Of a stretch of DNA of 64,000 nucleotides, positions 33,487 to 63,540 are shown one piece after another. The first letter of the stretch is position 1; every line of letters starts with the position of its first letter. The notes under the pieces were generated by a model, which worked only from the letters and a program-made list of their open reading frames with translations, did not search any database and was not told the origin of the DNA. The position numbers and the translations under genes were made by a program. The DNA comes from Falsihalocynthiibacter arcticus (lineage in GTDB: Bacteria; Pseudomonadota; Alphaproteobacteria; Rhodobacterales; Rhodobacteraceae), in contig NZ_CP014327.1 of assembly GCF_000812665.2 (NCBI RefSeq), positions 1,889,501-1,953,500 on the forward strand. Direction: 5' to 3'.

Positions 33487-34370
33487 GTGTTTCGGCGTGT
33501 AGGGAAACGATAACTGACAGCTTCGGAAACATGTTGTTTTAGAACGTTTTCCTGCTCACCCAAATCCGCAATTGTGCGCGCCACTCGAAGCACGCGGTGG
33601 TAACCGCGTGCCGATAGCCCAAATTTATCAGCAACTTTTGCGAGCAACTCTTTGCTTTCGTGGCCTAAGGCCGCGATGTCCTCAAGGACGTCTCCCTCGG
33701 CGTCGGCGTTCTGATGCATCCCATCTATTGTTTGAAAACGGGTCGCCTGAATTTCACGTGCGGCGGTTACACGCTTAGCTATCGTCGCGCTGCTTTCTCC
33801 ATTATTCGGCAAATCAAAGTCTGAAAACGGAACCGGCGGTACCTCAATCTGCAAGTCGAATCGATCCATTAACGGGCCAGAAATTTTTCCGAGATAGTCT
33901 TGGCCACAAATAGGTGCGCGGCTACAGGCTCGAGAGGGGTCAGGAAGATAGCCACATTTACATGGGTTCGCTGCGGCAATCAGCATGAACCGACATGGGT
34001 AGCGTACGTGTGCATTCGCCCGTGCCACCATGACTTCGCCCGCTTCGAGAGGTTGGCGCAAAGAATCCAAAACATTTCGGTTATGCTCGGGGAATTCGTC
34101 CATAAACAGGACACTGTTGTGCGCGAGGGAAATTTCGCCTGGCAAAGCGGCGCGTCCCCCGCCAACAATTGCCGCCATCGACGCTGTATGATGCGGGTCG
34201 CGGAAGGGGCGGTCACGATGAAGGCCTCCTCCCGAAAGCAAGCCCGCGACGGAATGCACCATCGACGTTTCGAGGACTTCGCGCGGAGTGAGAGGCGGTA
34301 AAATTCCGGGTAAACGGGCCGCCAGCATCGATTTTCCCGATCCAGGCGTGCCAAGAAGCAATATGTTGTG
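33483..34370 (-). pseudogene. comM: comM, C-terminal part (split by element)
   Basis: C-terminal two thirds of the ComM/YifB Mg-chelatase-like AAA+ helicase, needed for branch migration during natural transformation. It has Walker A LGTPGSGKS, Walker B LFMDEFPE and the zinc-site cysteines CPCRF/NPCKCGYLPDPSRAC. The matching N-terminal part is at 43087-43720. Removing 8,720 bp joins them into 505 codons in frame, so the split is due to insertion. The open frame continues 54 bp into the element with an element-derived ATG (34424), which is probably meaningless. Confidence 0.92.
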
Positions 34371-34415
34371 TATTATTAAACTTATATCATTTGAAATAGT
34401 TTGGTAGGATCTGAA

Positions 34416-36176: not shown

Positions 36177-36212
36177 TATAGGTGGTTTGGTTGGATACGA
36201 GACGTCAATCTG

Positions 36213-36809
36213 TTAGATTATATCGACTATACGTCGACGCGCGTTCTCAGAATAGTCGATATATCGTTCTGTCGTTTGCAGCGAAGAATGCCCTGCGAGA
36301 TATTGAACATCCCGCAATGACCCACCCACAGTCGCAATTTTCTTCGCGGCACTCGTGACAAATGTTCTACGCCCACTGTGCGACGAACAGCCAATAAATC
36401 CAAGATCACGATACCATTGGCTGAACATATTCACGATGACCTGAGGGCTAGTTTGCTTAGCCCTTTCGGTTTTCACTACGCAGTCCTCGGGCGAGAATGA
36501 AAGCTCTTTTTGGCTTGTTTCCAGTAACTCTTTAATTTTATCAAATAGCTTTTTGTTCATTGGGATTTTGCGTCCTGAGTTGCCTTTTGTTGCTACATTT
36601 TGCAGCGTGATGAATTGCGACAATGATCCATCTGAATCTAAGATCATTGACCATTCCAGCTTGGCTATTTCTTTTGCCCTTAGACCAGCCTTTATGGACA
36701 AAAGGAAAATGACTTCGTTTCTTCGCGAGTTCCTACGGCCATCCAGATAGTTGAGCACTGCATCGATCTGGTTGTTGTTGAGCGTTTTGGCTTGTTTGGT
36801 AAGTGACAT
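36213..36809 (-). CDS. Small tyrosine recombinase
   Basis: A 198-residue integrase of minimal type, with catalytic domain only. The catalytic set is present: Arg in KAGLRAKEIAKLEW, HSGRR in CSSHSGRRTF, His in LAGHSSLQTTERYID and Tyr at the end of that stretch. The order R-K-HxxR-H-Y looks intact. No arm-binding N-terminal domain is seen. It lies back to back with the serine recombinase inside the same element. It may resolve dimers, or be the integrase of an older nested unit. Confidence 0.9.
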   Translation of the reverse strand: MSLTKQAKTLNNNQIDAVLNYLDGRRNSRRNEVIFLLSIKAGLRAKEIAKLEWSMILDSDGSLSQFITLQNVATKGNSGRKIPMNKKLFDKIKELLETSQKELSFSPEDCVVKTERAKQTSPQVIVNMFSQWYRDLGFIGCSSHSGRRTFVTSAAKKIATVGGSLRDVQYLAGHSSLQTTERYIDYSENARRRIVDII

Positions 36810-37239
36810 TAAGTCTCCATTATAAAATAGTCTATTCTAATATAATATAATGAGACTACGGCGTAACCCGCTAGGATTTAGATTTTGTCCTTTTTTTTCA
36901 ATATGATATACATACTGATTATCTAATGATAATTCTATAATCAGACCAAATAGTCCGTGCTCTAATCCCGTCAAAATCAAAATGCCCTACTGTGTACGGA
37001 CCGTTGATTTGGGTAAGGCATACCGTCTTCAAAAATTGACTTCGACGACTAATTTTTTTAAATAAATTATTGGTATGGTTCACGATGTGAGAATGAATAC
37101 GGCCTATTTCGAGCATTCCCTGTCAATGCAAAAAATACCGACCAAAAATATTTCCGGTCTGAAGGGGGGAACTTCTAGGTATCCGAACCTCTATAAGTAC
37201 TTGAGAATATTCCGATTCGGGTTTCGCCTGACTTGAACT
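36810..37239. other. AT-rich gap without a supported gene
   Basis: The 430 bp between the tyrosine recombinase and the coiled-coil gene are AT-rich, with TATA-like stretches near 36835-36850 that suit a promoter of the recombinase. A 65-codon minus-strand frame at 36919-37116 has no ribosome site or recognisable pattern and is not called. Confidence 0.4.
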
Positions 37240-37776
37240 TCACCAATCCGCTTCGGTCAATCGACTTAACGCGAAAATCACAATAAATACAACAAAAACA
37301 AATGCGACAAAACCTGCGTATAATTTAAACATTATTTTCTTCGCCCGCATCACATCTTGCTTATCTGTTACTCTCCGAGCGATGGCATCTGCTTCTTCTT
37401 GTCGAATTTTGGCAGCCTCTTCCTCTTTTCGAATCGCCTCAAGAGCCGTCTCTTTAATTCTTTCAACTTCCAACGCAGCCTGAATTCGTGCATCGTCCTT
37501 AGCTTTTAATTCCGTAAGCCGCTGTAAGAGCCTCAACTTGAAATAATTGGTCTTTGCTGTGTTCTGGTCTTGGTTGGCGTCCACTAGACATTTAGCCCAC
37601 AGGCCTTTGAGAACGTTGCCACCCGTAATCTCGTTTTCAATCTCTTCATAGATTTTTTCCAAGTTGGAGTTGTAAGGCAACTGGTCTGCACTTTTCTCAA
37701 AGTTTGATACAGTGAAACTGTTTGGCTGCTGCTCAACGAAGTTTCGTTTCGACGCTTTGGACGGAGGAAATGCCAT
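37240..37776 (-). CDS. Tail-anchored coiled-coil protein of the element
   Basis: A 178-residue protein of unknown function. Residues about 85-140 are a charged, Glu/Lys/Ala-rich helix (IKETALEAIRKEEEAAKIRQ) likely to form a coiled coil; residues about 149-169 are one strongly hydrophobic segment (AGFVAFVFVVFIVIFAL) followed by a short polar tail. That is the layout of a tail-anchored inner-membrane protein facing the cytosol. It could be a cargo or defence effector; nothing in the sequence proves this. Confidence 0.65.
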   Translation of the reverse strand: MAFPPSKASKRNFVEQQPNSFTVSNFEKSADQLPYNSNLEKIYEEIENEITGGNVLKGLWAKCLVDANQDQNTAKTNYFKLRLLQRLTELKAKDDARIQAALEVERIKETALEAIRKEEEAAKIRQEEADAIARRVTDKQDVMRAKKIMFKLYAGFVAFVFVVFIVIFALSRLTEADW

Positions 37777-37921
37777 TCTTCATTCTCGCAATCAAATTCT
37801 GTGTTTTAACGAGTATCTGCATACAGATTTTTATTTCAAGAGGTAAGCTCAGTTCTGAAGTGGTCCGGCAAATTCGGACAGCGTGCTAAGATGTATCCAA
37901 CACTGATGAATGGATACGAGA

Positions 37922-38176
37922 ATGACGAAGCGACGGAACTTTTCAGACAAATTTAAGGCTGCTGTGGCGCTTGAGGCGCTGCGTGGCGACAAGACAGTCC
38001 AGGAGATTGCAGCCAAGCGCCAGCTTCTCCCGACGCAAGTGAGCACATGGAAACGGCAGGCGATTGAAGGCTTGGCCGGGGTGTTTTCGGATAAAATTAA
38101 GAAGGCTGAGAACAAGGACGGCGAGATCAAAGATCTGCACGCCAAGATCGGCCAGCTTGCGCTTCTCGGGGTGTAA
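37922..38176 (+). pseudogene. IS3 orfA, broken by a 35-nt insert
   Basis: DNA-binding helix-turn-helix protein of the IS3 transposase (MTKRRNFSDKFKAAVALEAL ... VQEIAAK ... TQVSTWKRQAIEG). The reading ends early at 38176 because 35 nt are inserted after KIGQLA. Skipping them gives KIGQLA-VENDFLSQGLKR and a TGA that overlaps the orfB ATG, the standard end. The insert contains the perfect hairpin GGGGTG-TAAA-CACCCC. The fused OrfAB product is probably not made. Confidence 0.8.
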
Positions 38177-38231
38177 ACACCCCTGCCAGCCAACGGGTGG
38201 AGAACGATTTTTTGTCACAAGGGCTGAAGCG

Positions 38232-39086
38232 ATGAGCCCGCCTGAACGTCGCGAGATGATCCGTAAGAAGAACACAAAGCTGAGCCTGACGCGCCAATGC
38301 AAGTTGCTGAAGATCAGCCGTTCGTCGATCTATTACACACCAGTTGGGGTGAATGCTAAGACACTTGCGCTGATGCATGAGATTGATCGGGTGTTCACCA
38401 AATATCCGTTCTTCGGAAGCCGCCAGATTGCCGCTTACCTTCCTCAGTCAGGGTTCTCTGCGGGTCGTCATCGTGTTCGTCGCCTGATGAGCATCATGGG
38501 ATTGCAGGCCATTTATAAGGGGCCTAACACCAGCAAGAAACACCCTCAGCACCGCATTTATCCGTATCTGCTGAGAAAGCTGCCGATCACGCGGCCCAAT
38601 CAGGTTTGGTGCAGCGACATCACCTACATACCTGTCAAAAACGGCTTTTTGTATTTGGTGGCGATTATGGACTGGGCGACCCGCAAGGTTTTGACTTGGC
38701 GGCTTTCCAATACGCTCGATGCCAGCTTCTGTGTGGAGGCGTTGGAGGAGGCAATCGCCCGATATGGCAAGCCGGAGACAATGAATACGGACCAGGGCAG
38801 CCAATACACAGGCGCGGGCTGGATCACGACTTTGACCAACGCTGACATCAAAATCTCAATGGATGGGCGGGGTCGCTACTTGGACAACATCTTTATCGAA
38901 CGGTTGTGGCGGTCGCTGAAACAGGAGGCCGTTTACCTGCATGAAATCACCGACGGCTTCCAAGCAAAACGGATCATTGATAGATGGATCGACTTCTACA
39001 ACACAGAGCGTCCACACACCGCGCTCGACAAACGTACGCCGGACGCGGCATACTTCGACCAAAGTGAAACACGAAAAGCGGCATGA
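38232..39086 (+). CDS. IS3-family transposase OrfB
   Basis: Integrase-core (DDE) transposase, 284 residues from the ATG at 38232. It has the HTH_21 region (FGSRQIAAYLPQSGFSAGRH), the first Asp in WCSDITYIP, the second in MNTDQGSQYT, and the Glu in DNIFIERLWRSLKQE, with the usual RPHTALDKRTP end. All three catalytic acids are present. A longer open frame from 38064 reads through orfA in another frame and is not the start. Confidence 0.9.
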   Translation: MSPPERREMIRKKNTKLSLTRQCKLLKISRSSIYYTPVGVNAKTLALMHEIDRVFTKYPFFGSRQIAAYLPQSGFSAGRHRVRRLMSIMGLQAIYKGPNTSKKHPQHRIYPYLLRKLPITRPNQVWCSDITYIPVKNGFLYLVAIMDWATRKVLTWRLSNTLDASFCVEALEEAIARYGKPETMNTDQGSQYTGAGWITTLTNADIKISMDGRGRYLDNIFIERLWRSLKQEAVYLHEITDGFQAKRIIDRWIDFYNTERPHTALDKRTPDAAYFDQSETRKAA

Positions 39087-39418
39087 AAACACACCAGATG
39101 CATCTTAGCCAAGCCGCAAACCTGTCCTAAAAAGCAGGACCACTTCATCCCAAAGGAATTGTAATGCAGATAGATCTAAGCCCTATGTTGTTAACGGAGG
39201 GCTTCCGCGAGTACGTCTTTTTGTTGATCAAGTTTAGGAAATTGCGAAGATATTTTCTTCCCTGTTTTTGGCCCAATTGCTTGCTTTTTAACTGAAGATA
39301 ATTTGATGTGGCCTTTAACTTAAGTAATCCCATTAAACATGACTAAAATTTAAAGGCCACAAAAGCGACCTCATCAACGATTTGAAACTGCAAGAAATTC
39401 ACGGACTAGAAGGAGTGT

Positions 39419-39883
39419 TTACTCGACGTCTAAGTGCGTGTTTTCGATATCCCAACCACCAATTGTTGGTGCTTTAGTGATGTAGTCTATCCAACCAGAA
39501 CTGAATACGGGTTGGATGTCGATTTCGTGGTAGCCCCATTTTGTTTTCGTCCAACAGTTGACTATTTCAGCACGAAAAATGTGCTCGTCATCAAACGGGT
39601 TCTCAATGATTGTATGGTAATGGTAACGGCCGACGAAAGGTTTTTCTAGAATAGGGATTACCTTTACTCTTCGATTGAATCTCTGGAAGGCGTTTCCGTA
39701 AGCCCTTTTATTTAAACAATTTAAAAAGTGCCTCATGTTTTTATTGGCTCGGATGCCGTCAAGAGCCTCACTACCAAACTGTTGCTTCATAGATAGTGTC
39801 ACAGCCATTTGGTTTTCTATTTTGGCATTGCGCAAGTATTCCCTGAGGCTTTCTTTTTCTTGTTGGTTATTCATTTTGGTCAT
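39419..39883 (-). CDS. HUH-like replication or relaxase protein
   Basis: A 154-residue protein with features of rolling-circle initiators: a HUH-like pattern GRYHYHTIIENP near residue 87 (His-x-His around Tyr) and WIDYITKAP near residue 133, which resembles the catalytic Tyr-x-x-Lys motif. It is similar in style to inovirus Gp2/plasmid Rep proteins, but shorter. GAAGGG precedes the ATG at 39883. If correct, the element can replicate or be nicked at an origin. The family call is from motif reading only. Confidence 0.6.
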   Translation of the reverse strand: MTKMNNQQEKESLREYLRNAKIENQMAVTLSMKQQFGSEALDGIRANKNMRHFLNCLNKRAYGNAFQRFNRRVKVIPILEKPFVGRYHYHTIIENPFDDEHIFRAEIVNCWTKTKWGYHEIDIQPVFSSGWIDYITKAPTIGGWDIENTHLDVE

Positions 39884-40160
39884 TCAAAACCCTTCTATTG
39901 GTTTCAGTGAAATTGACAGGCGATTGAGTTTTGGAAGCACCAAAACTACTAGTAAAATTATTCATATTTACTCCATTAAAAAAATACATTCCCAAAGAAG
40001 AATCCATTCAAGAACTACTTCAATTAAAAATATAAAATTGTGTGATTGTGTTTTCATTTACGAAAACGAGAACGTGCGACAAAATATCAAACACGAAAAG
40101 AGGGATTAATTCATTAAATCCTCTCACGAACTGTACCACAAAATGCGCTAAGTATCAACT

Positions 40161-40442
40161 TTAATTGGCTTCTGCCCTCAGGTGTATTGCAAGCGCGGCG
40201 AGTAATTGGTTTTGATAAGCTAGGTATATGCTTCGTTGTCGTGGGTTTTTTTCCAACTTAATTTTACGGCATAGCTGGTCAATGTGTCTTTGTATTTTTC
40301 GAGTGGCGTCAGTTGACCTAGCTATCTTTTTTCGAGCTTCGGAAAGGGCGATAAACTCTCGAAATTTGATTGTCCGGTTTTTCTTTCTAGAACTTTCCAT
40401 TTGGAACAAATTGTTTACGGGATCATTATATTTATTCGGCAT
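40161..40442 (-). CDS. Small basic protein of the element
   Basis: A 93-residue, strongly basic, mostly helical protein (TIKFREFIALSEARKKIARS, IQRHIDQLCRKIKLEKNPRQ). GGAGAG lies about 10 bp before the ATG at 40442, and the start overlaps the end of the ribbon-helix-helix gene by 11 bp, so both are co-translated. No family recognised; nucleic-acid binding is a guess from charge. Confidence 0.6.
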   Translation of the reverse strand: MPNKYNDPVNNLFQMESSRKKNRTIKFREFIALSEARKKIARSTDATRKIQRHIDQLCRKIKLEKNPRQRSIYLAYQNQLLAALAIHLRAEAN

Positions 40443-40671
40443 GAAGATGATCTCTCCAAGCCTCACCGAGTGGATTAGGAGGAAAACCATAATCCTGTGT
40501 CTTTGAGGGATTTTGACCCTTCACGAATTCAAGGATCATGAAGTTCAATCTTGCCGTCATTGAGATATGTTGGCTCCGACATATCAAATAGAAATCGGAC
40601 TTTAAGTGTTCTGGAATCCTGAAGTTCATCAGGGTATTGATTGCTCTTTGTTCTTCGAATGTTGTTTTCAT
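40432..40671 (-). CDS. Ribbon-helix-helix-like DNA-binding protein
   Basis: A 79-residue protein. Residues about 15-50 read NFRIPEHLKSDFYLICRSQH then ISMTARLNFMILEFV, a short beta strand followed by two helices, as in Arc/CopG-type repressors. TGGAG lies 6 bp before the ATG at 40671. As the first gene of a set with the basic protein and the Rep-like protein, it could be a copy-control regulator. Call based on pattern only. Confidence 0.6.
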   Translation of the reverse strand: MKTTFEEQRAINTLMNFRIPEHLKSDFYLICRSQHISMTARLNFMILEFVKGQNPSKTQDYGFPPNPLGEAWRDHLHAE

Positions 40672-40683
40672 TAATTGCTCCAC

Positions 40684-41644
40684 TTCGTCTGTAGCCTTAG
40701 TTTAGGTGTATCCAGAAACCAGATACTCTGAAGATTAAAGGCCCTGTTTAGAACCTTTACTCTTTAATTTAATTTGAAAAACCCGCTCGGAAGGGAGTGC
40801 TTACTCAGCGATCCAAAGACGTATTTTTGATGCCCCAGATATTGGTTGTAAGGGCATTATTCTGTAGGCAATCAAGCCGCTACTATGGGTCGGGGGAGGC
40901 GTGATTTCGCAAATTCCCAACGTGGTCTACGTTTCTGCACGAGCCATTCTTTATTCAGAAGTTTTAAAGCTTGATAATGGTCTCATAAACGCTGTTTCAA
41001 AAACGGTTACCTCAAATTGCTGTATATATAGGTTATTTATACAAATTGTTTTTTAAACCGAGAGGCGATTTGCCACTTAACTAGAAGGCTTGATATTTGT
41101 GGATTTGAAGGGGAAGAGTTGCCCATTGCGAAAAACACATGATAAGTCACTAAGTTCAAGGATGGGTGGTCCTACATTTAAACCGTCTGGCCAAGTGATT
41201 TGCTTTTGCCACTTAGGGGCCTAAAGGTCGCAAAGTTCTTTGACTTGATAGTTCGCTAGAGAAATTTTCGTGCGGCCCAGACAATGACTGATAATCTGGG
41301 TAATATTCCTTGCACCATACGAGCATCCATTGCCGACAAATCCTGCCGATTGACTGCTTCCACGGAGAACGGGCGTTCAGCGGATTGGGTTTAAGTTCCA
41401 CTGTGCTCGACTTTGCTGCCGTTCGCGTCGATCAGTCGAATTGGCGCTTCCGGCCCTTAGCTGCCGTTCGTGCTGAACGCGTCTAATGACCGCTCCCAGC
41501 CCAAAGCGGACATGCTGATAAATAAACGCAGTAAGTATGCTAGTAGGGGTTATGTTCCAATCTGTAGGAGCGCTGAGCTATAGGACCAGCTTGATGGAAG
41601 TTGCGACGAAGCGGATGAAATGTCACTTTGGGGAAGCGGTTTAC
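40684..41644. other. 961-bp gap with short repeats
   Basis: No supported gene. The right part holds two copies of GCTGCCGTTCG (41415-41425 and 41460-41470) and a stretch TGACCGCTCCCAGCCCAAAG near 41490. A third, inverted copy lies on the far side of the HEPN gene. The left part is AT-rich and may hold the promoter of the ribbon-helix-helix gene. Short ORFs in it lack ribosome sites. Confidence 0.45.
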
Positions 41645-42613
41645 TTAGTTTTGGCCCGAACTTGTTGTTGCTGCTACTGCGTCTCCAATAGCAATAATGG
41701 CTACTCGGACAGCGATGAGATACTGCTTCACGTCGTCGCAGTTTAACGTCAGCCGCTCACCTAAAGGAACTGTGTCGTTTGTTTGTTCCAAATAGGTGGA
41801 GTCAACTACACCACGATTGTGAACAAAAAGGTGTCGCCTCTGATTTAAAATCCTTAGATCTTCGCCTAATGCAGTCTGGACCGTAGACGATTCAAAAAGA
41901 GCTTTCATCGCGCCCTTGATGGTGCCGAGACTATCGAGACGTCGCCCCCGAAAGAGAACTGTGCCCATCGATTTTGATAGATCGTAACTGTGGTCGCCAA
42001 TTGTTTGAATATTGACCACCTGCTTTCCGAAGACCTCTTTCAATTCTGGAGAAGCAAGGATGGTCGACGCGCGGCTTGGATCATCATTAAGCCATTCAAT
42101 GATGAATGATCGAGCGAAGCTTTCGAAGATCGACCAAGTGGAAATCAACGTCTGAACAAGTAACTCTTCGGCAGCAATCCTTACATCCGGCGACATCAAG
42201 CGCCTGTCCAGCTCATAAAGCAGTTCATCGCGCACGGAGTCTTTTCCCTCGTCGCCGCTGAGGAACTCTTTCAACTTATGATCTGCAGATTTGTAGGCGA
42301 GCCTCTTTGCGTCCTCAGAAAGGCCACTGCCTGGCTTTTCAGGAATGAGCGCTAAAATACGTTCAGAATTGTGAAAGCTGTCAAATCGACGTTGCATCGT
42401 CGAGTCTTGAATGAGTTGGAACGGAAGCCCTGCCGCGCTGACTACGCTATGTAGACCCTCAATCGCAGACGCAATACATCTTGCGCTCGGGCACTCTCCC
42501 TCCGAATATGGCTTAAGCGGCTCCAGAAACGTTTCGGACGAGAATATCATAAAAGACTGTCCAACTTTGATCGCTAAGTCGCGGGGAGTGGGCGATTGTT
42601 GCTTGGTGGTCAT
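41645..42613 (-). CDS. HEPN-motif protein, candidate defence or toxin cargo
   Basis: A 322-residue soluble protein. The N-terminal third has no recognised domain. The C-terminal half is helical and includes LISTWSIFESFARSFIIEWL and, at residues about 260-265, RHLFVH, the R-x4-H motif of HEPN ribonucleases; the preceding helix pattern also fits the HEPN fold. Many HEPN proteins are RNases of toxin or antiphage systems. AAGGAC precedes the ATG at 42613. No partner antitoxin is adjacent. Last gene before the right end of the element. Confidence 0.6.
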   Translation of the reverse strand: MTTKQQSPTPRDLAIKVGQSFMIFSSETFLEPLKPYSEGECPSARCIASAIEGLHSVVSAAGLPFQLIQDSTMQRRFDSFHNSERILALIPEKPGSGLSEDAKRLAYKSADHKLKEFLSGDEGKDSVRDELLYELDRRLMSPDVRIAAEELLVQTLISTWSIFESFARSFIIEWLNDDPSRASTILASPELKEVFGKQVVNIQTIGDHSYDLSKSMGTVLFRGRRLDSLGTIKGAMKALFESSTVQTALGEDLRILNQRRHLFVHNRGVVDSTYLEQTNDTVPLGERLTLNCDDVKQYLIAVRVAIIAIGDAVAATTSSGQN

Positions 42614-43086
42614 ACTAAAATGTCCTTTGTCGTTGTTCAGCTTCGAGGTGGCACTTAGCGGTATCTCAAAAATTGCAGGATATCGTCTAGATGTGCCAGA
42701 AATCATTCGTTGCTGAACGGTAAATTGTACCGCGAGACAATGCTCAGGTTGAACATTGCTTTTACTTTTCTTTGCCGCCTCAGGAACAAACTGAGGCATA
42801 TCGCAGCGACGTCACAAAATAAATGACAGAAATGCGCAAGTTGCACTGCGACGACAAGAGGCTTGGCCAATGGCATTGTTAGGGCTGTTCGTGTGACTTT
42901 GCAAAGTTCACTATCTGCGCATAACGGACATCGGTGCGAGGTGCAGCGAACGGCAGCTCTCCGCCCATAGTGTCGGATGCTGCACTTGAAAATGAAGTCC
43001 GCTTGCCGCTGGTGTTGCTCTTGCATCAAGTCGAATAGACGATCAGTGTTCAAAACGGTGAAGTTTAATAGTTTACAATATTAACG
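42614..43086. other. Gap between the HEPN gene and the right end
   Basis: About 470 bp without a supported gene. It holds the probable HEPN promoter, the inverted AGCTGCCGTTCG copy and the terminal AAGTTTAATA. A 116-codon minus-strand frame (42703-43053) is Cys/His-rich by chance and has no ribosome site. Confidence 0.4.
42946..42957. repeat. Inverted copy of AGCTGCCGTTCG
   Basis: CGAACGGCAGCT here is the exact reverse complement of AGCTGCCGTTCG at 41459-41470, so a 12-bp inverted repeat brackets the HEPN gene with its flanks. An 11-bp direct form also occurs at 41415-41425. May mark a cassette border. Confidence 0.45.
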
Positions 43087-43720
43087 TGTGGTGACGCCCT
43101 GCCGCTGCGATTTCCAGCGCGCGTTTGGCGCGTTCTTGGCCTTTGACATCCCGCATGTCTTTTAGAGCGGGGGAATGTGTGGATTGTCCGGGCTCTGCGG
43201 CCGTTAGGAGTGTTTTTCCCGTGAAATGCTGAACCAAAGCCGTAAGGTTTGTCGCGCCAAGGGCGCGGGTTGTACTGACCCATGCCGCCTCGGAGGCACA
43301 TGAAATTGGACACAAAAGGTCTTTGTCTTCGGCCGCTGCTGTTAGGGCCGCAGGCAGGGAGCCATTCACATAGGCAAGGGTGCCATCCAGTGAAAGTTCT
43401 CCAATAGAAACATAGTCTTGTGCTGTGTCTTGAGGGATAATATCCAGCGCGGCGAGGAGGGCGATTGCAATCGGGAGATCGTAATGCGGCCCTGATTTTG
43501 GCAGGTCAGCAGGTGTGAGATTAATGGTGATCCGCTTGGACGGAAGGGCCACAGACATCGCCGTAAGCGCCGCGCGAATCCGCTCTCCGGCTTCGGACAC
43601 GGACTTTCCAGGAAGGCCGACAATTGAGAAAGCGGGCAGGCCGGGTGCAAGGGAGCATTGGACTTCGACCAGTCGCGCGTCGATACCTTCAAATGCAACT
43701 GTGTAAGTGCGCGCGACCAT
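43087..43720 (-). pseudogene. comM: comM, N-terminal part (split by element)
   Basis: N-terminal domain of ComM: MVARTYTVAFEGIDARLVEV, then FSIVGLPGKSVSEAGERIRA and NLTPADLPKSGPHYDLPIA, all standard. The chromosomal text ends at AAAGRHH and the next codons (to a stop at 43073) come from the element. The start at 43720 has AAGGTGG upstream. Without its AAA+ part this fragment cannot act. Loss of ComM is expected to lower chromosomal transformation. Confidence 0.92.
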
Positions 43721-43739
43721 TTTATCCACCTTAACAAGT

Positions 43740-54317: not shown

Positions 54318-54764
54318 TCCGGGGCACCTTTGTTAAGAAATCAAAGACTTGAAAGGCAGGTCGCGTGGTGGGTTTTGCTCCCCGCTTGGCGGTTTGAGTA
54401 TACGAAGCCCTCTCCAAAATGTAGCATCCGCGCCACCGTCAGAATTGATACAAATCAACTTTGGCAACCGTAAAAACGGACTTGCCCTTCAGTCTAGGCT
54501 GCCAGATCGCAAAACGGGGAGCATAGCTAAGTTCATTGAACCCCAAAGTTTTGCCTCGGCTAATAAATGCTGATCCAGCGCCAGATTGATTTGCCTCAAC
54601 TGTGGCACCATTTTTTCGCCGACAACGGAGGAGATAGGTGCCTTGCGCCGGAGGGATTCATCTGGATTGCGCCATAATAGCACCGCCGATAGGCCCGCTG
54701 ATCCTCCTCAGGAATTGCTTCTGTCTCGATGTCAGAAAACCTGTATCCAAAGGAAATCGCGAAA
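54318..54764. other. Divergent intergenic region cfa / usp
   Basis: About 450 bp without a supported gene. It holds the FNR-like box at 54445-54458. Short frames on both strands lack ribosome sites. Confidence 0.5.
54445..54458. promoter_or_regulatory. Perfect FNR box
   Basis: TTGAT-ACAA-ATCAA matches the FNR/FnrL consensus exactly. It lies between divergent cfa (start 128 bp away) and the tandem usp gene (start about 310 bp away), so it may act on either. Universal stress genes are common FnrL targets in this group. Confidence 0.7.
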
Positions 54765-55781
54765 ATGGCCACGAATCCACACTTCACCCGTTCTCCTTCA
54801 CAGGCGCCCGAAAGCCACAAAGGGTGTGACGTCATGATTTTTCTGGAGGGTGCACACGTGGAAACCTCCGCGCCGTTCCATGCCCAAAAGGTCGCAAATG
54901 CGTTTTCTGGCAAAGTCGTACTTGTGCATATTATGGCGGACCCTCACGACGGGAAGGGCCCGATTGATCCCGTGGATTGGGATATCAAAAAACAAAAAAC
55001 CATGAAGGATCTTGCTGAACGTGCTCGCCCCTTTGCAGGGGAGGATGGGCCAGAATGCGAAGTAAAACTGCTTGAAGGGCAGTGTATCGGTCAAGTTTCG
55101 GATTTTGTGGACCATCGGCAAGGGGGCATCGCCGCCGCATTGCGGTCAACGGATGGCCTTGGCTGGCAATCGAGTGATACCGCTTGCGGTGTTTTGTTGT
55201 CGCAAAGTGCGGCAATTCTTATGATCCCTGCCCGCGCGAAAGGGGGGCAAGACAGGCGCTATCGCCGAATTCTGGTGCCCCTAGATGGATCGGTCCGCGC
55301 AGAGGCCGCCCTCCCGAAGGCTGTTTTGTTGGCTAAAGCGGAAAACGCCGAACTTTTGTTGTGTTATGTCGTCCCGAGCGTGGGTTTGACCGCGTTTGGC
55401 GTCAAAGATAAAAAGTCTGAAAAATCGCATGAAATGGTGGCAATCAAGAATGAGCAGGCAGGTAAAAGACATCTCGGCAGCATCAAGAAAAGCCTCGCAC
55501 ACAACGGTCTGAAAGTATCCACATGCATTGTTCACGTCGGTGATGTACGGCGCGCCATCCTGAGTTTTGTGTCTGAGAAGGCCGTTGATTTTCTGGTCAT
55601 GGCGACGCACGGACAAAGCGGACACGGCGATGTTGCCACTGGAGATGTCGCCCGTTTCATTTTGGACTGAGCGGAAATTCCGGTGTTGATGGTACGCCAC
55701 AAACACACTCGAGATAATGTCCATGCGTTCAATACGGTGTCGTCCAAGGGGGGGCGGCAACCTGTGGGTACGGACGGATGA
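54765..55781 (+). pseudogene. Tandem universal stress protein with internal TGA
   Basis: Two UspA-type units: the first half is degenerate (CDVMIFLEGAHVETSAPF ... LLEGQCIG), the second is canonical (YRRILVPLDGSVRAEAALPK ... DFLVMATHGQSGHGDVATGD). At 55668-55670 a TGA interrupts VARFILD-stop-AEIPVLMVRHKH; the residues after it are the normal last beta strand of UspA, and the frame stays open to 55781. A single base change (for example TCA to TGA) explains it. The start at 54765 has AAGGA upstream. The full frame overlaps ndvB by four bases, so the two were one unit. Confidence 0.8.
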
Positions 55782-57470
55782 ATGCCGCCGAAAAAGCGTC
55801 ACTTGGTATTAATCGGACCCCGATAAACTATGCGATTGATACGGGGCCTCGGGCGTTGCTGCGGCATCATGTTGGCTATTGGCTCATAGGGGACGGGTTG
55901 CCCGCATTGGAAGCTGCAATTGAGTATCGCCCGCCCCTCATTTCTGCATTTCAGCGCCAATTGTCCGGATTTAGGGGTGCGCTCTATGCTCTGGGGCTCT
56001 CGCTGCTTGTGGTGGCCTCCTTAATGGTGTCGGTCGTCTATTTGTGGGTCAATGGCGCAACGTGGGGTCAATGGATTATCGGTGTCGCGGCAACGTTGTT
56101 GCCCGCCACAATCCCAAGCGTGTGGGTCGGGCATTGGCTTATCACCCGTCTGAGCCGCCCCAAGCCGCTCCCTGAACTGGACTTTTCAAAAGCCATTCCG
56201 TCAGGATTTTCCACGGCCATAATGCTTCCTGTAATTGTCGCGTCTGAGGTCGAGGGGATTGCCGAAAAGCTGGAGATATTGCGCCTCGCCAATCCCGATC
56301 CGGCCCTCACCTTTGTGGTGCTGTTAGATCCGGTCGACGCGCCGACACAAACAATGCCCGACGACCCCCTGATCGAAATCGCATTTCAAAGCCGGATCGC
56401 GGCGCTCAATCTCCGGTATGGAAAACAGGGCAAAGCCCCTTTCATTTTGCTGCACAGGGCACGTCAGCACAATCCATCCAAAGGCTGCTGGATGGCGTGG
56501 GAACGCAAGCGCGGCAAGCTTGAGGAGTTTAACCGTTTTGTGTTGGGGGAGGGTGTTGATGCTTTCAACGTGGTTGCCGGTCCCGTCGAAAGCCTGCGCG
56601 GTCTGCGCTATGCGATCACGCTTGACGCAGACACCCAATTACCACCAGGGTACCACATCGCGTCTCATTGGAATTATTGCGCACCCCCTTGGCGTGGTTC
56701 CAAATCGCCACCGTGACCGCGTTTGCTCCTGTGGCCCAGAAAGGAGGGCAGGAAGAGGACGTTGTTCGCTGGCGTGTGCATACTTTGGGTTTGGAAAACT
56801 CACTGTCCACGCAGGCATGGGATGGAGATTGGTATAGGCGCGCTTTTGATGATGAGGGTTTGCCTTGGGGGGCGTCCGAAAATGAGGAATGTCGGATTGA
56901 TTTGATCGCTCAGGCATGGTCGGTTTTATCGGGTCTCCCTGCGGATGCGCGTGCGCTCAAGGCGTTGACTTCGGCAGGTGAGAACCTTGTCGATGTCCCA
57001 AACCGGCTTATCCTCCTGCTTACCCCACCCTTTGACAAAACCGACCGTGATCCGGGATATATTCGCGCCTATCCACCGGGTATTCGGGAGAACGGGGGGC
57101 AATACACGCATGCGGCGGTCTGGCTTGGCTTGGCCTATGTGGCGATCAATGAGGCGACCTCGCGCATCAGGTTTTCGACATTATCAACCCCATTCGACGC
57201 GCCACAATCCAGCAAGCGGCAGACCTCTATCTGCGCGAGCCCTATGCGCTGGCGGGGGATGGGTCGGGCGTGGGCGCTCAAACGGGACAGGGCGCGCCGC
57301 AGTCGTACTCGAGTGCGACAATGGCCGCCATGAAGTGGTCATCGAGAACCCCGATCACATCAGTCACGGGCAAGGGTCGTTTTGTGTTGATGGCAGCGCC
57401 GCGACACAATGCAACGGTGGCCTACCCGGGGCGGGGGCATACACGAAACGTAGTCTTACTCCTGAAATAG
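55778..57470 (+). pseudogene. ndvB: Decayed cyclic beta-1,2-glucan synthase
   Basis: Remnant of the very large NdvB enzyme (usually about 2,800 residues). The first 290 codons show its GT84 part (FILLHRARQHNPSKGCWMAW, ERKRGKLEEFNRFVLGEG, YAITLDADTQLPPG). A frame change at about 56655 continues with RLIGIIAHPL, and then the text jumps directly to the C-terminal glycoside-phosphorylase part (DECRIDLIAQ-like ECRIDLIAQAWSVLSGL, YPPGIRENGGQYTHAAVWL). Further frame changes follow near 57170 and 57330. A deletion of some kilobases plus at least three frameshifts make it non-functional. Confidence 0.85.
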
Positions 57471-57835
57471 AACCCCAAGCGCGCATCCGTATTTTTGTGT
57501 CCAACCCCAGGACCCACACGGACACATGGCGGCCCAGAATGGATTTTCTAGGCCGCCAGCAAAGACCGATGAAGGGCGCGGTGTCAGGGCAGGGACGGGG
57601 GGGCGGCCTCCATGGTCTAACTGGGGTGTTGATTAAATCGGAACTGGTTCAAAATACGGGGCGCTTTGGGTGCAAATCACACCTTAATGTGCCCTTGCAA
57701 ATGGCTGTGCCTTTTACGTCCACGCTGTCGTTTATTCTGTTTTCGTAGAAACGGTTTGTTTTTCAATTGTGCTTAATTGAAGAGATAATGGCACAAAGTC
57801 GGGAGAAGCGATTGATTTGCATCAATCTCTGCGCG
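57471..57835. other. ndvB tail and gap before the HhH gene
   Basis: The first bases may still be ndvB-derived; after that no gene is seen. It holds the FNR box at 57812-57825. Confidence 0.4.
57812..57825. promoter_or_regulatory. Perfect FNR box without a target gene
   Basis: TTGAT-TTGC-ATCAA, an exact consensus match. It lies 11 bp beyond the stop of the minus-strand HhH gene and the nearest downstream plus-strand gene starts 1.5 kb away, so its original target may be lost. Confidence 0.55.
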
Positions 57836-58720
57836 TCATCTGGATTCCGCTTCACAAGGATAAAACGCGTCGCAGGCAGCCTCTCGACCTCGAATGACGC
57901 GCTTTCCTTTTAGAGGGCCGCGATGCTCGGTGACCACAGTACATTGCCCTTGGACGCGTTTTTCTTGTTCGAAATAAACCACAACCCAATCGCGCGTCCG
58001 CTGGAAATTTTGTGCCGCAGGTGTGTTGGAAAAGATGGCGGTCAAATGCCATTTGTTGCGCTCAGTATGGAGGATTGGGAGGTTTAACGACCCCGAAGCG
58101 TGAATTCGACGTGACGAAAGCGTCGGCATTTGGTCGATCGCCGCTCTGTAGGCGCGATCAATCTCAAAGATATCAACAACGGAGGGCTGTTTTTCAAGCG
58201 CCTTGTGCAGCGTCGGCCGACGCCGAGAGAGGATTTCAGTTAACGCATGTGAAATGGCATTAACCCGCCGCTCGCCTACGCCTTTAAGCGCCAAGAGGCG
58301 ACCGTCCATAGTGGCCTTCTCCAGCGCCTCCAGCGTATCAATATTCAGTTGGGAATGGATGGATTTTGCGAGACGCCGGCCAATCAAAGGGATCGTTTGA
58401 AAGAGCTTTTCTGGGCCATTGTTCCCGCGCAACCTATCTATCAAGTTAAGATTTCCAGTTTCGTGCAGTTCGACAATTGCTTTTGCGACGGGAGCCGCAA
58501 CGTTGGGAAACGCATCCGGACTAGCCCTCTCCATAATAGATTGAAGAGGTTGCGCTAAGTCCGCGACATAATGTGCGGCCTCTCGATAGGCCCGCACGCG
58601 AAACAGCGATGCGCATTGTTGATCCAGCAAATCGGCGACTTCGTTGAGCCGCGCTGCAACAAAACGATTTTCGTTCAAAGTCTCGCTTAAGTGATCCTGT
58701 CGTTGGATGAATGCAGACAT
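57836..58720 (-). CDS. Helix-hairpin-helix DNA-binding protein, PolX-N-terminal-like
   Basis: A 294-residue protein whose N-terminal 175 residues resemble the DNA-binding region of family X polymerases: ARLNEVADLLDQQCASLFRV, FRVRAYREAAHYVADL, and HhH motifs IPLIGRRLAKSIH and LLALKGVGERRVNAISHAL. The polymerase palm and PHP domains are absent. The C-terminal half (from RKRN-like NKWHLTAIFSNTPAAQNFQR) is a separate domain with no known name. Probable DNA binding or repair role. Confidence 0.7.
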   Translation of the reverse strand: MSAFIQRQDHLSETLNENRFVAARLNEVADLLDQQCASLFRVRAYREAAHYVADLAQPLQSIMERASPDAFPNVAAPVAKAIVELHETGNLNLIDRLRGNNGPEKLFQTIPLIGRRLAKSIHSQLNIDTLEALEKATMDGRLLALKGVGERRVNAISHALTEILSRRRPTLHKALEKQPSVVDIFEIDRAYRAAIDQMPTLSSRRIHASGSLNLPILHTERNKWHLTAIFSNTPAAQNFQRTRDWVVVYFEQEKRVQGQCTVVTEHRGPLKGKRVIRGREAACDAFYPCEAESR

Positions 58721-59271: not shown

Positions 59272-60546
59272 TTGCGGCTTTACGCGCAAGTCTGGGGGAA
59301 ATCTCGCGTACGATCGATAGCAATGTTTTCAGAAACATCATTTTTTGCGTGTCGAGCGACATTTCTAAATGTTCAAAAAGTGGAATGTATTGTGAAAAAT
59401 TTAGTTCTAAACACGTCTGATACACTCGAACGCATTTACGATTCGGCGCTTCGAAACACGCTCTTAGATACGATTTTGGATGTCGTTTCTCATTTCTTGC
59501 CAGGGACGGCGGTTGTGTTGTTCGGACAGGATACTGTGCGTCTGCCGGGAAATTTCATGTTGCACAAGGGGCTGGGGACGAATGCTGTCGTGGCGTCGAT
59601 GGCGAACTTGGCGGTTGATAATCCGTGGTTTGAGCGCCAGTGGCACCAGCGGCTCGGAGAGATATACCAAGACGGTGAACTCATGTCGCGAGAGGAGCAA
59701 ATCGCTTCACGTGGATTGACCATATGGAATGCGACGATGGGGGCAATGGTCCACGCGTCAGGGATCGTCCTTCATCGACAGCGCACCCGACAGCTGGTTT
59801 TGGAAATTCGGTTTCCAGAAACAACAGACGCGAAATCACGGCGCGACGCGACGGCCCTGCTGGAATCTTTAGGGCCGCATCTCGTGCGGGCGGCAAAAAT
59901 TATGTACCTCAAAAGCCGCTTTCCGTTGAGCACACAAATGGCCAATGATGTACTTGAGCTGTTTCCTTTTCCGGTTCTGATTGTTGACACGGAATGCCGC
60001 GTTCGCAGTATGAATGAGCGCGCCGAACTTTTGGCCAACAGGATGGATACATTTTTCATTAGTGCCGACAGCATCTTTCATGCCACCAATTTGGACGCCG
60101 AGTTGGAGTTTCGAGCCATGGTGAACCGGATGGGAGCCGGAGTTCAGCACAGCACCGAACTGTTTTCCCTGCCCAATGCCGAAAAGTCACAACAGATCTT
60201 TCTTTCGTTAACCAAACTCGGAGCGAACTCGACGCAGCGCCTAAACTCGCGTAACGTGTATGAAAAGCAAGGTGCTCGCTTGGCTCTGATTATTCAGGAT
60301 ACAACGGAGGCGCTTAAACTAAGTCACAGCGCACTTTGGAATGCATTCAAACTGACCAATGCCGAAGCCGAATTGGCCTCGCTGTTGTTGGAGGGGTGCA
60401 CAATCGGGGACTGTGCGCAAAAGCAGAGTTTGGCGAAACAAACGCTGCGCAATCACCTCGGTTCTATAATGAAGAAAACCAAGACGAACCGGCAACCACA
60501 ACTCGTTGCGTTATTGACTCGATTGGCACTCACGACGACACTCTAG
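59272..60546 (+). CDS. LuxR-type HTH regulator with PAS-like domain
   Basis: Transcription regulator, up to 424 residues. The middle part (ANDVLELFPFPVLIVDTECR, near residue 227) looks like a PAS-type sensor domain, and the C-terminus has a LuxR helix-turn-helix (FKLTNAEAELASLLLEGCTI ... LAKQTLRNHLGSIMKKT). No autoinducer domain is present. The start is unsure: a TTG at 59272 sits too close to AGGAG, and an ATG at 59323 or GTG at about 59393 is possible. It precedes the outer-membrane and curli genes and may control them. Confidence 0.75.
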   Translation: MRLYAQVWGKSRVRSIAMFSETSFFACRATFLNVQKVECIVKNLVLNTSDTLERIYDSALRNTLLDTILDVVSHFLPGTAVVLFGQDTVRLPGNFMLHKGLGTNAVVASMANLAVDNPWFERQWHQRLGEIYQDGELMSREEQIASRGLTIWNATMGAMVHASGIVLHRQRTRQLVLEIRFPETTDAKSRRDATALLESLGPHLVRAAKIMYLKSRFPLSTQMANDVLELFPFPVLIVDTECRVRSMNERAELLANRMDTFFISADSIFHATNLDAELEFRAMVNRMGAGVQHSTELFSLPNAEKSQQIFLSLTKLGANSTQRLNSRNVYEKQGARLALIIQDTTEALKLSHSALWNAFKLTNAEAELASLLLEGCTIGDCAQKQSLAKQTLRNHLGSIMKKTKTNRQPQLVALLTRLALTTTL

Positions 60547-60639
60547 AGGTAGATAGCCTCTCGCAGGCGTCACTTTGGGCCCATCGTATTACGGGGGGGC
60601 TTGGTGATGGCATGTGACCTGATACTGTAGGAGTGATCG

Positions 60640-61920
60640 TTGAAATCCCAATTTTTCGTCCTCGCGATGATCTGTTCTGGCTCCGTGGCCCATTCTCAAA
60701 CCTTTGATCAAGACCTCCTGAGTCCCTTTTCAGCGCTTGGAAGCGGCGTGACGTTTGGGTTTGCGGATATGTCCCAATCGGACGAATTCAACGTGACGGG
60801 CCCCAGTGTAGGGTTCGGACTTGCTGCTAAAATCGACAGTGACGACGTTGCACCGTTTTATTTGGAGTGGAGTGGATCGTGGGCGTGGGGGTCGAACTTC
60901 ACGTCTAGCACCGAAATGCAGGGATCCGATGCCTACGTTTATGCGCCCAGAAGAAGCCCCGTGGGCACAATCGACCTCTCCACCGAGATCAGTGCCACTG
61001 GCCCCACCGCGGCGGCGGCGGTGCAAATCACAGATAATTCAGGGGATACGGCGACCATTTTCAGTTCTGCATTTTCGCCTTTCGGAACCGGAAACTCCGT
61101 GGCGCAGTTTGCCACAACGATGACGGATGCGGGCGGTATTTATGCGGCATTAACCACAGACGGCGAGGCGATCACCGCCACGTCCTATGGGGGAATGTTT
61201 GACTCGACGGGCGTTTCGTTCATGGGGACGGGCAATGAAAGCAACACCACGACCATCACGACCACGGTTGAGGACAATATCAAATTTTCCAATCAGGTGC
61301 TTTACCTGAGTAAGCGTTTTTCACTGGATGAGAACTGGATTTTGTCGCCCAAAATCGGGCCGAACTATCGTAGTTTTGATCGCAGCAATACAACGCGCAC
61401 GACCATTAATATTGACGGAAATCGCGGATCGGATTCCTCCATTCCGACAGTAACAATGGAAGATAACTGGAAGCTAAACGGGAAATACTATGGTGCCGTT
61501 TTGGGGGCGGGCCTCACGCGAAAAATAAACGACGCTTGGAGCATCAATTTTGGGGCGGAAGCTGGACTGACAAAGTTCAATGCCAAATCTGAAACGATGG
61601 AGCTGGTGAATTTCGCGGGATCTGCTTCGGCCATTCCCGGCGAGCGCAAATCCTTGAATGGCACCTCACGCGTTGGCCGGTTAACTGGTGCATTAACCCA
61701 TGTTGCCGAGAACGGCGCGATTATCGTTTTTGGTGGTTATTTGGATTACATGTCGGATGTTCCGTATTTACAATTTGAGACGGTTGGCAGTCCTAACATA
61801 ACCACGGCAGGATCATCCGTCGGCTTGTCAGGGAACGGCGATACCTATCGCACACATTCGATCCAAAAAAAGAAGATGATCGGCTCGGGTCTCAATCTGA
61901 GTATAGTTTTTCTCTTTTAA
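60640..61920 (+). CDS. Outer-membrane beta-barrel protein
   Basis: A 426-residue protein with a signal peptide (cleavage after SVAHS or nearby), repeated amphipathic strands separated by Gly/Ser/Asp loops and a C-terminal Phe (LSIVFLF), the signal for barrel insertion. The reading starts at a TTG with GGAG 7 bp upstream. No transport family recognised. It converges with the curli genes; a role in fibre export or a separate porin-like role is open. Confidence 0.75.
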   Translation: MKSQFFVLAMICSGSVAHSQTFDQDLLSPFSALGSGVTFGFADMSQSDEFNVTGPSVGFGLAAKIDSDDVAPFYLEWSGSWAWGSNFTSSTEMQGSDAYVYAPRRSPVGTIDLSTEISATGPTAAAAVQITDNSGDTATIFSSAFSPFGTGNSVAQFATTMTDAGGIYAALTTDGEAITATSYGGMFDSTGVSFMGTGNESNTTTITTTVEDNIKFSNQVLYLSKRFSLDENWILSPKIGPNYRSFDRSNTTRTTINIDGNRGSDSSIPTVTMEDNWKLNGKYYGAVLGAGLTRKINDAWSINFGAEAGLTKFNAKSETMELVNFAGSASAIPGERKSLNGTSRVGRLTGALTHVAENGAIIVFGGYLDYMSDVPYLQFETVGSPNITTAGSSVGLSGNGDTYRTHSIQKKKMIGSGLNLSIVFLF

Positions 61921-61939
61921 CCTCCCTTAAAACTCTGAA

Positions 61940-61968
61940 AGCCCGACCTGATTGTCACAGTCCGGGCT
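61940..61968. terminator. Hairpin between the barrel gene and csgH
   Basis: AGCCCG-AC (61940-61947) pairs with GT-C-CGGGCT (61960-61968), one bulge, around a 12-base loop. It lies 20 bp after the barrel gene and overlaps the csgH stop. A T run is weak. Confidence 0.45.
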
Positions 61969-62428
61969 AGTCTAGCGTGGTATCGCAGGCGGCCTCGTTT
62001 CCGCCTGAGCGAACTGACAATCGCGCCAGATAGCGATCTCCGGCCAAGGCATTGACGATGACCATTCCGACAATCTTTCGCTCGTCCGGTGCGACGTCAA
62101 ACAAGCCACTTTGCGCAATGTTGGAGCGGCCACTTACTCCCTGTTTTGTAACGACAAAACTGTAACTCCCCGCGGCCTTGTCCCCCGACCAGACCACGCC
62201 ACGGAGTTGAAGATTCTGCGACACCGTTTTGGTTGTTATCTCACAGTGGAGTTTCCCAGAGGAACTCTCTGTCTGTACCTCTCCCAAGGCCGATTTTTCT
62301 GTTTGGCTCATGGCGTTTGCCCTTTGTATCATGCAAAGTGTCGATACGCCGATAACCAAAAAAAGAACCAGCGCCTTGTGCCACGAAGGGTGACGAGCGC
62401 CGTTAATATCCAAAACTGATACGGGCAT
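61967..62428 (-). CDS. csgH: CsgH-like curli chaperone
   Basis: A periplasmic protein of 153 residues with an N-terminal signal/anchor segment (about 18-38, ALVLFLVIGVSTLCM) and a beta-sandwich body: LHCEITTKTVSQNLQLRGVV, AGSYSFVVTKQGVSGRSNIA, and two Cys (near 61 and 148) that may pair. This fits CsgH, the alphaproteobacterial inhibitor of premature curli amyloid formation. GGGGAG precedes the ATG. Last of three co-directed curli genes. Confidence 0.78.
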   Translation of the reverse strand: MPVSVLDINGARHPSWHKALVLFLVIGVSTLCMIQRANAMSQTEKSALGEVQTESSSGKLHCEITTKTVSQNLQLRGVVWSGDKAAGSYSFVVTKQGVSGRSNIAQSGLFDVAPDERKIVGMVIVNALAGDRYLARLSVRSGGNEAACDTTLD

Positions 62429-62616
62429 CTTCTCTGCTCCCCTTTTTACGGGATAATTTGGTTCCTGGGTTAACGAGGCGCAACGATTTTTTGCACTGTA
62501 ATTCGCTCGCCCAGGTAACTCATAACTTGTCCGCCGGTTGAAGTTTTACCGACGCGGTCTACCGATCACCTCGTTTGTGAGCACAAAATGCCTAGAGAAA
62601 TGATCAAATTGACCTG

Positions 62617-62991
62617 CTAGTTGTTGATTCCGAATTCTAGCGTCGTCGTTGCGCCACCACTCCCCCATGTTTGAGAGTATGTAGAAAACGAACCGGTATA
62701 TCGTGGTGCGGAGAATTGAAAACTTCCGTACCCCTGATAATTTCCATTCTGGTTTACGCTTCTGCTAAAATTATCCCCAACTTGGGCGATGGATGCTGAG
62801 TTCCAGCGTCCGTTCTGACCAATGGACGCACTGTTATTATCTCCAACCTGAGTTGTGTGTGCATCATTGTCACCAGCTTGTGTTGTTGTAGCTTCGTTGT
62901 TGTCTCCGGTCTGATTTGTGTCTGACGTGTTTTGTCCAAATACGGAGAGTGGGGCGCTTATCAGCGCCGCAGTGATAAAGATCCTGAGCAT
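62617..62991 (-). CDS. Curlin-repeat protein, CsgB-like
   Basis: Secreted protein of 124 residues with a signal peptide (cleavage after SVFG) and curlin-type repeats of Q-x-G-D-N: TNQTGDNNEATTTQAGDNDA, HTTQVGDNNSASIGQNGRWN, SIAQVGDNFSRSVNQNGNYQ. The last 35 residues are aromatic and not repetitive, as in a nucleator. GGAGG lies 7 bp before the ATG at 62991. Minor fibre subunit or nucleator by inference. Confidence 0.8.
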   Translation of the reverse strand: MLRIFITAALISAPLSVFGQNTSDTNQTGDNNEATTTQAGDNDAHTTQVGDNNSASIGQNGRWNSASIAQVGDNFSRSVNQNGNYQGYGSFQFSAPRYTGSFSTYSQTWGSGGATTTLEFGINN

Positions 62992-63133
62992 CGTCAATCC
63001 TCCCTTTTTTCAAAGAAATAAAATTTGTGGTTAGCCTGACTTGAACAGTTCTCTTTAGAAAGCCTGACTACCTAACAAAAAATTTTAAAGAGATCCGATT
63101 CGGCATGGCAAACGTGTTTGTATAGGGTCACAC

Positions 63134-63158
63134 GGGGCGGCATTTTTAATGCCGCCCC
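63134..63158. terminator. Hairpin between the two curlin genes
   Basis: GGGGCGGCATT (63134-63144) and AATGCCGCCCC (63148-63158) form an 11-bp perfect stem with a 3-base loop. On the minus strand it lies just after the CsgA-like gene and before the CsgB-like gene, with no T run, so it is likely a partial stop or an mRNA-stabilising 3' hairpin. Confidence 0.6.
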
Positions 63159-63171
63159 TGCATTTTAATGG

Positions 63172-63540
63172 TTAGTGTGGCGAAACGCCGTCCACTTGAA
63201 TTGTATTGGAGCCGTTGCCCACACCAACTTGATTGGTGTTGGAATAGTGACCTGTACCAAATTGGCTGGTTCCCGCAGCATTTAGATGACCAGCTTGAGT
63301 CGTAACCGAGCCATTCCATCCGCCGACTTGCAATGTGCCAGAAAAGTTTCCGGAACCGTTTTGACCAGTGAAGGCGCCATTGGCAAGACCGTACTGACCT
63401 GTCATCGCGAGGTTAGCCCCAGCCTGCATTGTGGTTTGGTTGTTGAAAAATCCGCCCTGATCGACGATTGAGATGTTCTGTGCGTAAGCTGCGCCTGACA
63501 GAAGTGCGGAAACAGCGACGGTTGCAAAAATCTTTTTCAT
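63172..63540 (-). CDS. Curlin-repeat protein, CsgA-like
   Basis: Probable major amyloid subunit, 122 residues. A signal peptide (MKKIFATVAVSALLSGAAYA) is followed by regular Q-x-G-x-x-N repeats with a period of about 11 residues (TTMQAGANLAMTGQYGLANG, AFTGQNGSGNFSGTLQVGGW, TTQAGHLNAAGTSQFGTGHY, SNTNQVGVGNGSNTIQVDG). The start at 63540 has a GGAGG site 5 bp upstream; the longer frame runs through the promoter region. First gene of the csgA-csgB-csgH string. Confidence 0.85.
   Translation of the reverse strand: MKKIFATVAVSALLSGAAYAQNISIVDQGGFFNNQTTMQAGANLAMTGQYGLANGAFTGQNGSGNFSGTLQVGGWNGSVTTQAGHLNAAGTSQFGTGHYSNTNQVGVGNGSNTIQVDGVSPH

Follow-up and report, generated by a model that had tools for sequence, protein, structure and literature searches.

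The closest described systems to the locus reported here are the curli of Escherichia coli, whose regulator CsgD is LuxR-type, and the Fap functional amyloid system, in which the exporter is an outer-membrane barrel, FapF. Ten-stranded outer-membrane barrels are represented by OpcA and OmpT/Pla. We analysed a 64,000-nucleotide stretch of the Falsihalocynthiibacter arcticus genome (contig NZ_CP014327.1, positions 1,889,501 to 1,953,500; hereafter the window), in which two curlin genes and csgH face a pair of genes encoding a LuxR-type regulator and an outer-membrane barrel protein. In many Alphaproteobacteria only curlin subunits with csgH are recognisable and other proteins must replace the rest, according to the available part of Dueholm et al. 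(2012, PMC3521004), which also posed as unsolved how curlins get to the surface, and remain attached there, without their customary Csg partners. The available part of a 2023 survey counts 1,033 genomes without CsgG among 43,279 CsgA genomes (PMC10192328).

The window locus resembles E. coli curli in its two curlin-repeat subunits, its CsgC/CsgH-type periplasmic chaperone and the nearby gene for a LuxR-type regulator. It differs in that the genome has no match to CsgG, CsgE or CsgF, an unrelated outer-membrane barrel being linked instead, and in that the regulator has no demonstrated relationship to CsgD. With curli-like subunits and chaperone and no CsgG match, it is a variant and not a member of canonical curli. 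The alphaproteobacterial loci of Dueholm et al. are similar in that curlins and csgH alone are recognisable, whereas the window has the order curlin-curlin-csgH and not the commoner curlin-csgH-curlin, the genomes with the barrel form a separate CsgH clade, and a linked luxR-barrel pair goes unmentioned in the available part of that paper. A literature search of open-licence papers returned neither a luxR-barrel-curlin locus nor an answer on the surface route of curlins lacking Csg partners. The new part looks to be the link of the luxR-barrel pair with this curlin subtype. Barrel and regulator, which our searches met with a single CsgG-less subtype of curlin and nowhere else, are a concrete and genetically simple candidate for part of the route. 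Tentatively, and with confidence just short of even, we read the locus as a dedicated CsgG-independent module for curli-like surface fibres, with the barrel as anchor or nucleator under LuxR control.

Curlin subunits and chaperone

The five genes named in the preliminary description of the window are all present at the place given there among the open reading frames (ORFs). Curlin 1 (63172–63540, minus strand), the predicted major fibre subunit, consists of a signal peptide and eight N/H-x5-Q-x-G curlin motifs, spaced at 10–11 residues and running to the C terminus; shuffled sequences contained 0.31 motifs on average, and eight were reached in none of 10,000 shuffles. It matched NCBIfam CsgB weakly (7.8e-6) and, searched alone, gave no match in Pfam. 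Curlin 2 (62617–62991, minus strand), the predicted minor subunit, has a signal peptide, five such motifs (a count likewise reached in none of 10,000 shuffles) and a non-repeat C-terminal tail, and matched Pfam Curlin_rpt (E 1.1e-14). Its ORF extends over 62617–62997, with an ATG start at 62991 preceded by GGGAGG. Both curlins were aligned with relatives (six-row alignment A7 for curlin 1, A8 for curlin 2). Signal peptides of the curlins and of the barrel protein were judged by eye and not by a signal-peptide program.

The csgH gene (61967–62428, minus strand) encodes a periplasmic curlin chaperone well above family cut-offs (Pfam CsgH, 2.9e-16, 59.7 bits, cut-off 27; NCBIfam chap_CsgH_alph, 6.5e-24, 83.8 bits, cut-off 35) and matches the solved CsgH structure 2N59 in the PDB at 3.6e-11. 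Two sequence-distant cysteines, given as the criterion of the CsgH family in the available part of PMC4838910, are present as C62 and C148. The single string of two curlin-repeat proteins and CsgH seen in the preliminary description is thus borne out.

Against the nearest relative found, Loktanella sp. bin.44 (locus L125), amino-acid identity of the five genes is 41–64%, and in all five the third codon positions differ most, as expected of maintained proteins.

Elsewhere in the genome, a curlin-like stretch of 69 residues with no evident signal peptide (L083:9628–9837; G000:C1, approximately 361,630–361,840) lies back to back with the frame of a repeats-in-toxin (RTX) protein and looks like a curlin remnant.

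Absence of CsgG, CsgE and CsgF matches

The lack of csgG, csgE and csgF, noted at first for what was in view, holds in profile searches for the genome in its entirety (4.38 Mb, completeness 99.99%), and these found no complete csgEFG elsewhere in it. The CsgG profile gave no match in the entire window genome, although it is effective within the family, where 17 of 198 genomes yielded a CsgG. The CsgF profile, run against the window genome alone, gave no match at E<=1, and the CsgE profile none at E<=0.1 in the five genomes with a curlin-curlin-csgH cassette, the window genome included. Among 14 control genomes both profiles exceeded the cut-off in E. coli alone, and since there was no positive control within the family, the absence of CsgE and CsgF is less secure.

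Among 394 family genomes, which nearly all belong to different genera, the CsgH profile had matches at E<=0.001 in 41, and in 37 of these the match exceeded the cut-off. CsgG was without a match in 35 of these 41, strong in three (G129, G374, G025) and weak in three (G089, G223, G226); the counts of 41 and 35 retain one doubtful csgH place (G005, E 3.7e-4) that a second csgH profile did not confirm. Curlin/CsgH loci without CsgG are therefore ordinary in the family.

Two kinds of curlin/csgH cassette

We examined 44 loci, the window being one, which cover all 45 CsgH places in the 394 family genomes. In 28 of them csgH stands between two curlin genes; neither the LuxR orthologue nor the barrel lies beside these curlin-csgH-curlin cassettes, which are mostly set amid apparently unrelated housekeeping genes (first 26 loci checked, names by eye). 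The order curlin-curlin-csgH was found in five loci, those of the window genome (G000), G071, G081, G108 and G393. The remaining loci have one curlin (six), none (three, one of them also without a confirmed csgH) or ambiguous, overlapping frames (two). Both kinds occur together in G108 (L080, L057) and in G393 (L107, L108), neither of which has a CsgG match, so that one kind does not exclude the other. Two ORF clusters (2 and 3) that had suggested further conserved neighbours were judged to be antisense shadows of curlin and csgH frames and were not counted as neighbours.

Facing the curlin-curlin-csgH-luxR cassette of G393 is an outer-membrane protein of 260 residues (L108:9566–10348), which is unrelated to the barrel and may be an alternative partner in its role.

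The luxR-barrel pair and its distribution

As described at the outset, barrel and regulator genes face the curlin string, both on the plus strand. The barrel gene (60640–61920) has a TTG start after AGGAG and encodes 426 residues with a signal peptide and a C-terminal F. Upstream of it lies the regulator gene (59392–60546), whose product showed a GerE/LuxR helix-turn-helix at 3.1e-4 and 20.8 bits, below the curated cut-off of 23.5; no CsgD model was among its NCBIfam matches. The GTG start at 59392 gives 384 residues, the length of the Loktanella homologue, and is for that reason likelier than the start at 59272 assumed previously. The regulator was aligned with its relatives in alignment A4.

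A profile of the barrel protein matched four of the 394 family genomes (G000, G071, G081, G108), and all four have the curlin-curlin-csgH order. The chance of all four falling within five of 394 is 5e-9, but shared descent makes this value too small, and three of the four had supplied the sequences for the profile. A LuxR orthologue scoring more than 600 bits was present in exactly these four genomes among the 310 family genomes searched, the next best score being 118 bits. G393 contributed its LuxR to the LuxR profile but is absent from the matches, and presumably lies outside that sample of 310. Scoring was limited to the top candidates of each genome (four for the barrel, six for LuxR), so that weak homologues of either may be missed. 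The barrel directly follows luxR in all four genomes, and in three of them the pair adjoins the curlin genes. Of the 35 CsgH genomes without a CsgG match, 31 are also without a barrel match. No barrel was found outside this curlin subtype in the 394 genomes.

The LuxR alignment, run against named genomes, gave three loci, in Oceanomicrobium pacificus KN286 (Rhodobacterales), a Rhodobacteraceae metagenome-assembled genome and Loktanella sp. bin.44. All five genes seem to be present in KN286. Of the three, the Loktanella genome is the one that adds to the four above: it is a fifth, independently found barrel genome, in which all five genes are laid out as in the window. Taking the five barrel genomes together, the barrel stands after the same LuxR gene in five of five and the pair abuts the curlins in four of five; in a tree of CsgH they form one clade (support 99/100) on a long stem.

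Several further candidates were set aside. Among 385 genomes of the class, the barrel gave, besides G000, three weak partial matches (E 4e-7 to 2e-5), which were taken as generic barrel similarity; their short flanks contained neither curlin nor csgH. A match in G008 (7.2e-4), the only one outside G000 in a single-sequence search of 61 relatives, was not confirmed by the profile search, and a search of plasmids with the barrel gave no match. Weak LuxR-like matches at the edges of the ordinary curlin loci L065 and L101 (E 2e-8 to 3e-8), and those of 81–118 bits in nine further genomes, were treated as paralogues.

Predicted fold of the barrel protein

In Pfam and NCBIfam the barrel protein matched nothing at curated level, the best hit being Pom at 0.04, below the cut-off; its profile gave chance-level matches only against PDB sequences. 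An AlphaFold model from four sequences (predicted local distance difference test, pLDDT, 74.5; predicted template modelling score, pTM, 0.68) shows ten long strands closing into a barrel, with an insert of approximately 95 residues between strands 3 and 4. Structural comparison of the model ranked Legionella porin I (Z 20.7), OpcA (19.5) and OmpT/Pla (17–19) first; the next matches scored 11.7 and lower, with FapF at 9.1. On this prediction the protein would share a ten-stranded closed barrel with OpcA and OmpT/Pla; it is unlike them in having no sequence-family match, a conserved beta insert and an association with curlins. FapF is likewise an outer-membrane barrel tied to an amyloid subunit, but its Z falls well short of the 17–21 of the best matches.

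Even-stranded barrels usually have both ends in the periplasm, and on this ground the insert (60940–61251, plus strand) probably faces outward. It is the best-conserved part of the protein, with a mean pairwise identity of 0.41 as against 0.23–0.24 elsewhere (five sequences). Surface loops usually show the reverse and are less conserved than the barrel. Modelled alone, the insert gave a beta meander at pLDDT 81.9, the other four models reaching 55–63. Compared with PDB structures it had no clear match (best Z 4.5), and the absence of a listed fold is not proof of a new one.

Proposed assembly and alternatives

According to the model that we prefer, curlin 1 as major and curlin 2 as minor subunit would enter the periplasm by Sec and be kept soluble there by CsgH, and would then cross the outer membrane by a route other than CsgG. 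At the surface the narrow ten-stranded barrel would be the fixed point at which fibres are anchored or nucleated: its outward conserved beta domain would hold or seed curlin 2 or curlin 1, and so stand in for the CsgF-CsgB base that curli have in E. coli. The barrel gene and the facing curlin genes would both be activated by the LuxR-type protein. The model starts from gene content and order, the missing CsgG, CsgE and CsgF matches, co-occurrence and the AlphaFold fold; outward topology, anchoring, regulation and fibre formation itself are what we infer from these.

Four observations weigh against this model. In G081 the luxR-barrel pair is on a different contig from the curlins. In G393 the curlin-curlin-csgH cassette has a LuxR gene next to it, yet the genome gave no match to the barrel, and its CsgH sits on a long branch apart from the clade of the barrel genomes. 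The structural model, from four sequences and of moderate confidence, is such that the insert could be a plug instead of an outward domain. A simple k-mer and palindrome scan of the upstream regions of curlin and luxR genes found no shared promoter motif.

A bolder proposal, worth entertaining although we would not lean on it, is that the luxR-barrel pair constitutes a new surface-assembly module in which the outward domain would template the amyloid, and possibly gate the exit of its subunits, with no need for CsgG, CsgE or CsgF.

Alternatively, the barrel may be a separate adhesin, protease or porin under the same LuxR, co-expressed with the fibres without touching them. The nearest folds are indeed a porin, an adhesin (OpcA) and surface proteases (OmpT/Pla), and the unlinked pair in G081 is as such a protein would have it. 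Yet in none of the 394 genomes did the barrel turn up apart from this curlin subtype, and its insert is more conserved than the barrel itself, so that we regard this explanation as unlikely, while giving it some weight.

The preliminary description had left open whether the barrel is an exporter or an anchor of the fibre. Its link with the fibre genes is supported by co-occurrence and gene order, and of the two roles the anchor has fared better. An export pore in place of CsgG, as FapF is for FapC, would account for the genome's lack of a CsgG match and for the exclusive co-occurrence, within the sample, of barrel and curlin subtype, and in many Alphaproteobacteria other proteins have to stand in for the Csg proteins that are missing (Dueholm et al. 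2012, PMC3521004, available part). The exporter is nevertheless made weaker by the narrow predicted fold, with ten strands nearest porin I, OpcA and OmpT and FapF far lower, and by the 31 of 35 CsgG-less CsgH genomes that have no barrel match. Because the luxR-linked cassette of G393 and the commoner curlin-csgH-curlin cassettes do without the barrel, it is unlikely to be a general exit route. We consider the export pore quite improbable; a surface anchor or nucleator is the likeliest role and fits the predicted barrel better.

That the curlins are periplasmic, or a decaying remnant of a curli operon with incidental neighbours and no surface fibres, is more doubtful still: the CsgG, CsgF and CsgE profile searches, the only ones made for export channels, gave no outer-membrane route and the second curlin-like stretch resembles a remnant, but all five genes are under coding constraint relative to L125 and the layout is kept across several genera.

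RNA hairpin downstream of curlin 1

A GC-rich hairpin of 11 bp lies approximately 13 bases past the stop codon of curlin 1 (63134–63158, minus strand; the hairpin scan listed it for the opposite strand). The gap after curlin 1 folds strongly in six of six curlin-curlin-csgH cassettes (window, L125, L127, L058, L056, L108; z −3.1 to −7.0), in hand-chosen stretches with no control on the other kind of cassette. The hairpin may be RNA-stabilising or attenuating, and would fit a more abundant first subunit.

Other features of the window

A comM/yifB-type gene is split into two parts (33483–34424 and 43073–43729, within 33483–43729) by a mostly low-GC island of approximately 8.6 kb that carries a large serine recombinase (34401–36176) and an IS3 transposase (38064–39086). 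At 55778–57748, the frames of a glucan-synthase-like membrane protein (named by eye, the identity being a guess) seem to be fragmented into short overlapping ORFs, and the first fragment had no match in Pfam or NCBIfam. Around the curlin locus (window 54729–58720 and L001:1272–8391) there are stress-type genes, most of them named by eye, which include universal stress proteins, a Crp/Fnr-like regulator, a histidine kinase and a response regulator. Near the Loktanella locus a similar gene is found next to a stress protein (names mostly by eye).

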